Shown: positions 60,492 to 64,000 of the stretch, one piece after another
Numbering within the stretch: position 1 is the first letter of the stretch
Layout: every line of letters begins with the position of its first letter
Assembly: GCA_007125955.1 (NCBI GenBank)
Contig: SLCF01000002.1
Span: 19,133 to 83,132 of the forward strand
Source of the DNA: Bacteroidales bacterium
GTDB taxonomy: Bacteria > Bacteroidota > Bacteroidia > Bacteroidales > PUMT01
Direction of reading: 5' to 3'
DNA: 64,000 nucleotides
The notes under the pieces: model-generated
The model's input: only the letters and a program-made list of their open reading frames with translations
Databases searched by the model: none
Told to the model about the DNA's origin: nothing
Position numbers and translations under genes: made by a program

Positions 60492-60526
60492 AACGTCCCG
60501 CTGAATTCTCCGGCGGGACGTTTTTT
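60492..60526 (+). terminator. Intrinsic terminator downstream of the sodium:solute symporter
   Basis: aacgtcccgc-tgaattctccg-gcgggacgtt followed by T-run; T-run reaches the xseB stop. Confidence 0.85.
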
Positions 60527-60735
60527 CATTCCCCCTCATCACGGATCTCCTTCATAATATTCTCTACCTCTTCTTCAGTTTTATAGAGTTTTTCGCGGCA
60601 GATCTTCAGCAGCGAATAAGCTCTTTTTACCTTTTCTGCCAGATGGTCAACATCCGTCTCCTCATTCTCAATCTCTTTAAGGATCAGTTCAATTTCCCCG
60701 ACAGCTTCTTTGTAGGTGGTAATCTTTTTGGTCAT
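60526..60735 (-). CDS. xseB: Exodeoxyribonuclease VII small subunit
   Basis: TYKEAVGEIELILKEIENEETDVDHLAEKVKRAYSLLKICREKL. Confidence 0.85.
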   Translation of the reverse strand: MTKKITTYKEAVGEIELILKEIENEETDVDHLAEKVKRAYSLLKICREKLYKTEEEVENIMKEIRDEGE

Positions 60736-60766
60736 CTCTCATTTTGGGTTTTAAAATTTCTTTATG

Positions 60767-60774
60767 CAAAGATA
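60767..60774 (-). promoter_or_regulatory. -7 box TATCTTTG for xseB
   Basis: Plus-strand caaagata = minus TATCTTTG (TAnnTTTG), 32 bp from ATG. Confidence 0.55.
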
Positions 60775-60812
60775 GCAGAACACCGGTTTTTATAATCAAG
60801 CAAACCGGCATG

Positions 60813-62903
60813 TCATTTACTCAACGGAACCGTAAAAATGAAGCAGCTTCCCATACCCGGCTGGCTTTCAACACGGATCTCTCCACCGTTTATCTCTACA
60901 AACTCCCTGCAGAGGATCAATCCCAATCCGGAGCCTTTTTCTCTCTCAACTCCCGAATACATCTGATTCCCCTCAATCTGGAAGATATTTTCAAGTCTCT
61001 CCTGCTCAATACCCAAACCGTTATCTTTAACACACACTTCAGCAAAACCATCTTTTTTGCATACTGAAACCGTCACCTGACCATCTTCAGGAGTATATTT
61101 CAGTGCATTCTCAACAAGATTGCTTATGGTGCTGGATATAAGGGTTTTGTCTGCATACACAGCTATTTCGCCATTGCCCGGCTCATCAACCATGAGAGAA
61201 ATATTCTTATGGTACGCAATCTTTTTTACAGCGTCGGTCTCGATTCTTACCAGCCTGCTTAAATCAAACCGTTCGGGTGTACAACTGAGCGTTCTTGTCT
61301 GGGTGGCTGACCATTGCAAAAGATTTTCAAGCAGTCTGAAAAGATTTTTTGAGGAGCGATTTATGAAGCCAACCTGCTCTTTTATCTCTTCCCGGGGCAA
61401 TTCCCCGATATCACGTGCTATCTTTTCCGACGTCCCGAGCAAATGAGTAAACGGATTTTTCAGGTCATTCGCAATAATTGAAAAAAACCGGTCTTTTGTA
61501 GCATTGAGCTCTCTCAGTGAGCTGCCCGAAGCAATTAGTTTTTCATTCACCTCCTCAAGCTCAATTTTCTTATCTTTCAATATAAGGTTTGTCCTGTTTC
61601 GCAGCCTGAACCTCCATATAAAGACAACCATTATCACTGTCACAATTATCAAAGACGAAATAATAAACCAGCTCCAGGCTCTCTGTTTGCGAAGTTCCAT
61701 TTCATGAACTTCATACTCTTTCTGAAGCAGCTCGATCTGTTTCTCCCTGGATTCTGTCTCGAATATATTTTTCAGGTTCTCCAGATTTGCTTCTGAATCG
61801 GCCTTGAAAATGCTGTCTTTTAAATTTATATGTATCACAAAATGTTCATGCGCCGCTCTTGCATCTCCGGCAGCTTCAAAATATTCCGAAAGGCATCTGT
61901 GGTTATCACTTCTGATCTCGACCAGTTCCAGTTCAGAGGCAATCCCACCGCTCATTGAAATATACCTGTATGCCTCCGGCAGGTTCCCCCAGTCGAGATA
62001 TACCTTACCTATACTGTTATATACTCTCGCAAGAGATACAGAATCCTGTAAACCTTTGAAAATGTCAATTGCCCTGTAGTAATTCTCCAGCGATTCATTG
62101 TATTCCCCTTTAAGGTAATATGCCTTTGCAATACCCGAATAGGTGCTTCCCTTTTCACCATCCATGGGAAGTTCTTCCAGTATTGAAAGCAGATCATTAT
62201 AATACTCAAGCGCCCCGTCATAATCACCAAGGTCGGTTTTCAGTCTTCCAAGATGAGCAAGAGTTGATGATATCAGCTGCCGGTCGTCTGTCATGATCTT
62301 TGCATCCAATGCCCTCGCAAGGAAATCAAGTGCTTCCCCGAACATCTGCTGCTGCATATAAAGCAATCCGATATTGTTAAGAATAATGCCCTCCCTGAGG
62401 TAATCACCTTCCTCCTGAATAATTTCGTAGGCGTCATTATAGTATTCCAGGGCTCTTTCATGATTATTCAGAAAATAGTGGACATTTCCGCTTCTGTTCA
62501 GAGCATCTGCCATTCCTGTAACCGAACCTGTAGCTTCCGCAATACCATAAGCCTCTGCAGCATATTCAAGGCTCCTTTCAAAAGAGATAAACCAGTACGA
62601 ACGGGACAGTTCAAGAAGTATCCCGGCCTTTTCCCCGCCGGTACTGCTCTCAAGCAGTGTCTCAAGACTGTCAATCCTTTCGTTTTCCAGGCTAACCGCA
62701 GTTACAGGGAAACAAAGCCACAACAACATAAATAGAACTGTATGAAAAAGTGGAGTGTATATTGCCATTGAAAAAATCCCTCTAATCCCTTTAAATACGG
62801 AAACTTTTTCAGAAGTATTCCTGCTTCCCCGTAAAATAACACCGGTTTTACCCTGGCAATCCGGAGCAAAAAAATCTACACATATTTTTGGTATTAGTTT
62901 CAT
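60813..62903 (-). CDS. TPR sensor histidine kinase-like protein lacking phosphoacceptor His (start may be 62768)
   Basis: TPR repeats, TM, degenerate H-box FFSIIANDLKNPF, N-box NLVENALKYTPED, G-boxes DNGLGIEQERL and GSGLGLILCREFVEINGG. Confidence 0.9.
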   Translation of the reverse strand: MKLIPKICVDFFAPDCQGKTGVILRGSRNTSEKVSVFKGIRGIFSMAIYTPLFHTVLFMLLWLCFPVTAVSLENERIDSLETLLESSTGGEKAGILLELSRSYWFISFERSLEYAAEAYGIAEATGSVTGMADALNRSGNVHYFLNNHERALEYYNDAYEIIQEEGDYLREGIILNNIGLLYMQQQMFGEALDFLARALDAKIMTDDRQLISSTLAHLGRLKTDLGDYDGALEYYNDLLSILEELPMDGEKGSTYSGIAKAYYLKGEYNESLENYYRAIDIFKGLQDSVSLARVYNSIGKVYLDWGNLPEAYRYISMSGGIASELELVEIRSDNHRCLSEYFEAAGDARAAHEHFVIHINLKDSIFKADSEANLENLKNIFETESREKQIELLQKEYEVHEMELRKQRAWSWFIISSLIIVTVIMVVFIWRFRLRNRTNLILKDKKIELEEVNEKLIASGSSLRELNATKDRFFSIIANDLKNPFTHLLGTSEKIARDIGELPREEIKEQVGFINRSSKNLFRLLENLLQWSATQTRTLSCTPERFDLSRLVRIETDAVKKIAYHKNISLMVDEPGNGEIAVYADKTLISSTISNLVENALKYTPEDGQVTVSVCKKDGFAEVCVKDNGLGIEQERLENIFQIEGNQMYSGVEREKGSGLGLILCREFVEINGGEIRVESQPGMGSCFIFTVPLSK

Positions 62904-64000
62904 TTCGGTACTGTGAATTTAAATATACTTCCCATCCCCGGTGTGCTTTCAGCCCATATCCTGCCACCGTTCTTTTCAACAAATTCCTTTGAAAGGGCAA
63001 GGCCGAGACCTGTACCTTTTTCATCCTGGGTTCCCTTCTTGGACACATTATAATCCAGGCTGAACAACTTTTTAATTTCCCCCTTCTCTATACCCGTACC
63101 GTTATCTTTTACCGACACCTCAATAAACCCCCTGTCTTCCTTTGAAGAAAGCTCAACCCTGCCTCCAGTTGCGGTGAATTTTATTGAATTGCTCAGGAGG
63201 TTCCTTATCACGGTCGAAAAAAGATTTTCATCGGCAAAAACTGAGTGGCTCTCCTTTATATTATTCTTAACCTTAATATTCTTCCTTTCAGAGTGTATCT
63301 GAAGGGCCTGAACCACTTCGTCAGATACCTCTTTCAGACTGAACCAGCCTGGATCGAAATCGATGCTGCCTGTCTGGCTCCTTGACCACTGAAGGAGGTT
63401 TTCCAACAGCTGGTAAAGATTCTGTGCTGATTTATGTATTATATCAACATAGGTCTTTATCTCTTCTTTTGAAAATTCATCAATATTTTGTGAGAGCATT
63501 TCGGTGAATCCCAGGAGGGCGTTGAACGGATTCCTAAGGTCGTGCGCAATAATCGAGAAAAACCTGTCCTTAGTGGCACCGAGTTTTTTCAGAATCTGTT
63601 CTGTTTCTGAGAGCTCATGATTTATCTTTTTAAGCTCTCTGTTTTTCTGCTCCAGTAGCTTTATAGACCTCTTCTTATAAAGATACAACCTGTATACTAA
63701 AAAAATCATCAATATCAGAAGCAGTGTCAGGCCGGCAAGAAAAAGCTGCATTGTTCTCTGCCGCTCAAGCCTCAATTCCTGAAGTTCATAATCATTCTGA
63801 AGAATCTCCAGCTCCTTTATACGATTTTCCGATTCATGCCTGATCTGAAGCTCTCCTATTACATCCCTTGACTCCCTTGTATATATATTCTCCCTGTATT
63901 CATCAAACAGCTTACGGTATTTAAGTGCTTCGGCAAACTCATTCCTGAGCGCATGCAAGTCTGCCCTGAACTCGTAGTTCTCTTTGATTATCTCCCTGGC
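62900..64000 (-). CDS. Sensor histidine kinase, partial (N-terminus off the window)
   Basis: TM, H-box FFSIIAHDLRNPF, NLLSNSIKFT, DNGTGIEKGEI, GTGLGLALSKEFVEKNGG; frame stays open to the window end. Confidence 0.92.
   Translation of the reverse strand, partial: AREIIKENYEFRADLHALRNEFAEALKYRKLFDEYRENIYTRESRDVIGELQIRHESENRIKELEILQNDYELQELRLERQRTMQLFLAGLTLLLILMIFLVYRLYLYKKRSIKLLEQKNRELKKINHELSETEQILKKLGATKDRFFSIIAHDLRNPFNALLGFTEMLSQNIDEFSKEEIKTYVDIIHKSAQNLYQLLENLLQWSRSQTGSIDFDPGWFSLKEVSDEVVQALQIHSERKNIKVKNNIKESHSVFADENLFSTVIRNLLSNSIKFTATGGRVELSSKEDRGFIEVSVKDNGTGIEKGEIKKLFSLDYNVSKKGTQDEKGTGLGLALSKEFVEKNGGRIWAESTPGMGSIFKFTVPK

Follow-up and report, generated by a model that had tools for sequence, protein, structure and literature searches.

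Pseudo-histidine kinases are rare but already known, and few bacterial examples have been studied so far. The acceptor His is reportedly missing from about 1% of histidine kinases, with Asn among the substitutes (PMC5361649). DivL of Caulobacter is a studied pseudo-histidine kinase (PMC4211667; PDB 4q20). It has a HisKA/HATPase_c core with Tyr at the acceptor position, PAS sensors, and weak ATP binding, and it works together with CckA, an intact kinase that is unlinked and belongs to another pathway. In group A Streptococcus, FasB and FasC are co-encoded sensor kinases, one of them a proposed pseudokinase, and two-hybrid evidence points to FasB/FasC heterodimers (PMC12675982). A third case comes from Corynebacterium glutamicum, where one of two paralogues (a ChrS pseudokinase variant) loses catalysis and the intact one (HrrS) signals (PMC9491836).

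The window (the whole stretch of 64,000 nucleotides analyzed), from a Bacteroidales bacterium, adds a further member, HK-B, which follows a DivL-like logic. HK-B is a 696 amino acid protein with a TPR, transmembrane, HisKA, and HATPase_c arrangement (60813..62903; the window features described here are all on the reverse strand), and it is encoded next to a paralogous kinase, HK-A. A Foldseek comparison of the HK-B model with DivL gave a target TM-score of 0.91 (4q20_B). Unlike DivL, HK-B has Asn at the acceptor position, a TPR sensor, full ATP contacts, and a partner that is its own paralogue, encoded alongside; the inactivity of DivL is experimental, and that of HK-B is predicted from sequence. 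With Asn and TPR in place of a Tyr acceptor and a multi-PAS sensor, HK-B falls outside the DivL family. The likeness to FasB/FasC, drawn by description, lies in the co-encoded kinases; FasC keeps its His and has a dispensable kinase domain, whereas HK-B loses the His and keeps the ATP contacts. The ChrS variant differs in its origin, a frameshift within the catalytic domain that appeared during laboratory evolution (PMC9491836). Particular to HK-B are the combination of Asn with a preserved ATP pocket, the paralogous partner, and a graded degeneration among its orthologues.

By sequence and fold, the closest solved kinase core is that of HK853 from Thermotoga maritima (PDB 2c2a, 3dge), an active kinase that, unlike HK-B, has the His and no TPR domain. 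FimS-type TPR histidine kinases (NF053520) are the top NCBIfam match for both HK-A and HK-B, and the match runs from the last part of the sensor region through the kinase core. HK-B scores 194.9 bits against this equivalog, below the cut-off of 600, and is not a member. The locus also differs from FimS in that a fimR-like neighbor was not seen beside the pair.

The HK-B H-box is FFSIIANDLKNPF, where FFSIIAHDL[KR]NPF is expected. In the open reverse-strand frame the codons read TTT TTT TCA ATT ATT GCG AAT GAC CTG AAA AAT CCG TTT. Based on the sequence and the alignment with orthologues, the AAT codon at 61467..61469 encodes Asn479 in place of the phosphoacceptor His. The original prediction identified this substitution correctly but placed the codon in the area of 61470-61472, which is the preceding Ala codon (GCG). 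HK-B contains HisKA followed by HATPase_c, both above the Pfam cut-off, and so has the architecture of a histidine kinase with Asn479 (AAT) where the phosphoacceptor should be. HATPase_c is at full strength (84.5 bits); HisKA reaches only 27.6 bits, barely above the cut-off of 26.9, and the HK-A HisKA scores 58.6 bits. Alignment, AlphaFold2 (mean pLDDT 78.8), and Foldseek, which matched the modeled core to HK853 and DivL, describe a kinase fold with its acceptor replaced, and HK-B is classed as a pseudo-histidine kinase on this basis.

HK-B is predicted to sense through a TPR superhelix at about residues 50-345 (61869..62756), based on Pfam and AlphaFold2 helices with high pLDDT. A single transmembrane stretch, WSWFIISSLIIVTVIMVVFIWRF, was read from the sequence (61611..61680), and the model contains a continuous long signaling helix from 348 to 480. 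The DHp/HisKA domain covers residues 461-545 (61269..61523; Pfam and alignment), and just after the H-box it has a drifted THLLGT where NALLGF is expected. The catalytic/ATP-binding (CA) domain covers residues 546-695 (60819..61268; Pfam) and keeps its N-, G1-, and G2-box residues. The ATP-binding residues N595, N599, K602, D627, G629, G631, G657, G659, L660, and G661 are all present, which bears out the claim that the N- and G-boxes are complete.

HK-A, identified from its ORF, Pfam, and orthologues, lies upstream (62900..64000). Its H-box, FFSIIAHDLRNPF, is canonical as predicted, with the phosphoacceptor His encoded by CAC at 63542..63544 (sequence and orthologue alignment). The 5′ end of the gene is cut by the contig end, and the full-length protein is about 765 aa in relatives. 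The window end (64000) is also the end of contig G000:C21 (83132 bases), and the N-terminal half of HK-A is absent from this contig. The HK-A stop and HK-B start share an ATGA overlap (62900..62903), which points to translational coupling; the same 4-base junction is found in 13 of 14 family genomes. Directly downstream of HK-B is xseB, for the small subunit of exonuclease VII (60526..60735; PF02609, 40.6 bits, and synteny). A response regulator gene was not noticed among the neighboring genes of the pair, which were viewed without a dedicated search. The ATGA-coupled start puts about 45 residues ahead of a signal-peptide-like stretch, MAIYTPLFHTVLFMLLWLCF (window 62768-62903), and a later ATG may be the true HK-B start.

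The family sample has 16 genomes, of which 14 carry the HK-A/HK-B pair or parts of it; the genus of this genome (G000) is sampled by three species only (G000, G001, and G002), all draft assemblies. All HK-A copies covering the site have His (13/13), and HK-B has His in 12 of the 14 family genomes and Asn in two. The second Asn is in G002 (codon AAC, H-box ANDLKIP). G001, a 61% identical relative, has His (CAT). His in a close relative had been named as evidence against the original prediction, and the orthologues divide on this point, one having His and one sharing the Asn. A fixed Asn in the genus was considered and rejected on the basis of G001.

Asn is rare at this site. Of 18 HisKA domains detected in this genome, 17 have His at the H-box and HK-B is the sole exception. 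Searched with degenerate DNA patterns, FFSII[A/G]NDL occurs in one of 393 genomes of the order (HK-B here), and FFSII[A/G]HDL in 163, often in several copies per genome. In a wider set of related loci, His was found in all 125 kinase rows covering the site (126 rows, a few of which are the same family again). One apparent exception, the H-box LFSQVNFEIKLR in L024, came from a spurious regex hit; the real motif there is FISIIAHDIRNP. A literature search for a natural Asn-type pseudo-histidine kinase in Bacteroidetes found none. The Asn in HK-B could come from an error of sequencing or assembly at this one codon of a metagenome-assembled genome, or from a variant in a minority strain: the genome is fragmented (165 contigs) and CAT to AAT needs a single C-to-A change. 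We consider this very improbable, as an independently assembled second species has Asn at the same residue and the accelerated evolution of the surrounding core (below) fits a real loss. The Asn in G002 shows that the substitution is not a one-off error, and the HK-B Asn is probably real.

Catalytic losses were judged with 43 alignment columns that are conserved among 38 kinases from outside the family. By this measure, no catalytic residue has been lost from HK-A in the 14 genomes. HK-B has a catalytic loss in three of 14, by two routes: His to Asn in two species and destruction of the G2 box in one. This evidence is all comparative and represents few independent events. Within the genus, HK-B lacks K472, G537, and T652 in every one of the three species. 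G000 and G002 share the loss of H479 and R594, and G000 and G001 that of F603. The Mg/ATP contacts from N595 to G661 are kept in all three. In G007, from the other genus, HK-B keeps the His and has lost W531, D585, G651, G659, and L660; its changes include G659R, L660N, T652Y, and D585G, the ATP lid is destroyed, and the G2 box reads KRNGL. Two of these orthologues are also short. The G002 HK-B (L039:8772-10214) is reduced to 480 aa with about half of the TPR region gone, and both tandem kinases of G007 (L052:1036-2833) are without TPR domains (291 and 303 aa).

The residues that follow the H-box show the same division. This segment is FNALLGF in every HK-A that was read and in the ten HK-B without degradation, and each of the four degenerating HK-B, but no other, has an altered version (THLLGT, NQLLGA, NKLLDF, and YDLLEY). 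This segment bears on whether HK-B could be a phosphatase only, making no phosphate itself and dephosphorylating a regulator charged by HK-A. In HisKA proteins, phosphatase activity depends on Thr or Asn at H+4, and the kinase-like DrBphP acts solely as a phosphatase (PMC8292422). HK-B does have Asn at H+4 (N-D-L-K-N), but the Asn-bearing G002 orthologue has Ile there (N-D-L-K-I) and the segment expected to dock the regulator has drifted in all three genus members. We regard a phosphatase-only role as unlikely.

The HK-B kinase core evolves about 2-3 times faster than the HK-A core in the genus with Asn. Between G000 and G001, the CA domain has a dN of 0.31 in HK-B and 0.11 in HK-A; the values are 0.17 and 0.10 in the DHp domain and 0.24 and 0.22 in the linker/TM region. 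In the other genus, CA-domain dN for HK-A/HK-B (0.21/0.23, 0.23/0.19, 0.14/0.18, and 0.04/0.04) has no consistent difference. Since dS is saturated for most pairs, we compared dN and pN/pS, without a branch dN/dS model. These comparisons indicate that constraint on the HK-B kinase core is relaxed in this genus, the His-bearing G001 included, and that the relaxation is limited to the core of HK-B. HK-B pN is 0.15-0.28 and pS is 0.66-0.82, with pN well below pS in every domain, so HK-B is still constrained by purifying selection.

The fast evolution of HK-B, the shortened G002 copy, and several independent lesions across the family could also describe a decaying paralogue that is heading for loss, in which the Asn has no function. 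We find this rather improbable. The low pN relative to pS and the open orthologue frames (stop-free in all 14 genomes where complete) are as expected for a gene retained by selection rather than a pseudogene, and the genus as a whole retains both the ATP contacts and the coupling of the genes.

The same rates bear on the proposal, made in the original prediction, that HK-B binds ATP and phosphorylates the HK-A His in trans, as one half of a heterodimer with divided labor. Every HK-B ATP contact is intact, the two genes are adjacent and coupled, and FasB/FasC is a proposed natural case (PMC12675982). Against this, the proposal needs a conserved CA domain, yet this is the domain of HK-B in which constraint has relaxed most in the genus; T652 of the lid and G537 of the hinge are among the losses common to all three species and R594 among those of two. 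HK-A is also complete by itself and would not need a donor. In favor of the proposal there is also a classical laboratory precedent for donation in trans, from E. coli NtrB, in which His-to-Asn mutant subunits are donors. HK853 is a cis-acting kinase, and the HK-B DHp domain aligns with it gap-free through the inter-helix loop, which argues weakly against a trans donor. A consistent donor role is not evident in the family, since the G007 HK-B is without a G2 box and has the His. A donor in trans is also unlikely, and of the roles first proposed for HK-B, the one that fits best is that of a pseudokinase or allosteric partner (the acceptor is gone, the ATP site is complete, and the coupled paralogue is intact).

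Trees place the split between HK-A and HK-B before the split of the two genera. The favored tree groups G000 with G001, with support of 98/89 for HK-B and 98/94 for HK-A, and this grouping requires two changes at the site: either His was lost twice, or it was lost once and regained. A tree that forces the G000 and G002 HK-B together is disfavored, though the AU test does not reject it (p 0.07), and the flanking genes do not settle the branching order of the three species.

We favor, with some reservation, a pseudo-histidine kinase HK-B that is co-translated with HK-A and would be its non-phosphorylatable sensory or allosteric partner. The ancestral HK-B may have been a normal TPR-sensor histidine kinase, the paralogue of HK-A in a translationally coupled pair. 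Selection on its phosphotransfer would have been lifted in this lineage, and Asn would have replaced the acceptor His. HK-B would pair with HK-A via their similar coiled-coil and DHp helices, and its TPR domain would supply signal input. Itself unphosphorylated, HK-B may modulate the autokinase or phosphatase state of HK-A, which alone would pass phosphate to a putative unlinked response regulator. The His kept in G001 counts against this partner role, and the G002 HK-B, without about half of the TPR region, indicates that a sensory role is not conserved in every member. The ATP contacts kept in all three genus members count against a pure scaffold, which would not need them. Gene coupling makes HK-A and HK-B a candidate heterodimeric kinase pair similar to FasBC or GacS/RetS, as does the TPR loss in both G007 kinases, which is expected of a joint sensor.

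The family preserves a natural series, with HK-B intact in 10 species, its core relaxed with the His present (G001), the His lost (G000 and G002), and the lid lost (G007). Intact HK-A is found beside HK-B at every stage. The series would allow the transition from kinase to regulatory subunit to be tested, along with the pair as a heterodimer.

Many other Bacteroidales also have two tandem kinases between xseA and xseB, based on synteny and Pfam identities. A broader possibility is an obligate HK-A/HK-B heterodimer in the exonuclease VII operon, with labor divided between the subunits in this genus, so that the HK-B ATP site powers or gates the HK-A His and phosphorylation of HK-B was abandoned repeatedly and independently; we think this quite unlikely. 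The longer second kinase (about 960 aa) found between xseA and xseB in other Bacteroidales may or may not be the direct orthologue of HK-B, as the AU test rejects neither grouping (p 0.124 and 0.108). There was no xseA match in G008 or G014. L013 (G029) has a single TPR kinase between the two genes, so not every genome of the order has the pair. Genes for the large (xseA) and small (xseB) subunits of exonuclease VII flank tandem TPR kinases in the window (60526-64000) and in L038, L039, L060, L063, and L065, and the same arrangement occurs in L067, L068, L070, L078, L087, L099, L106, L120, and L127.
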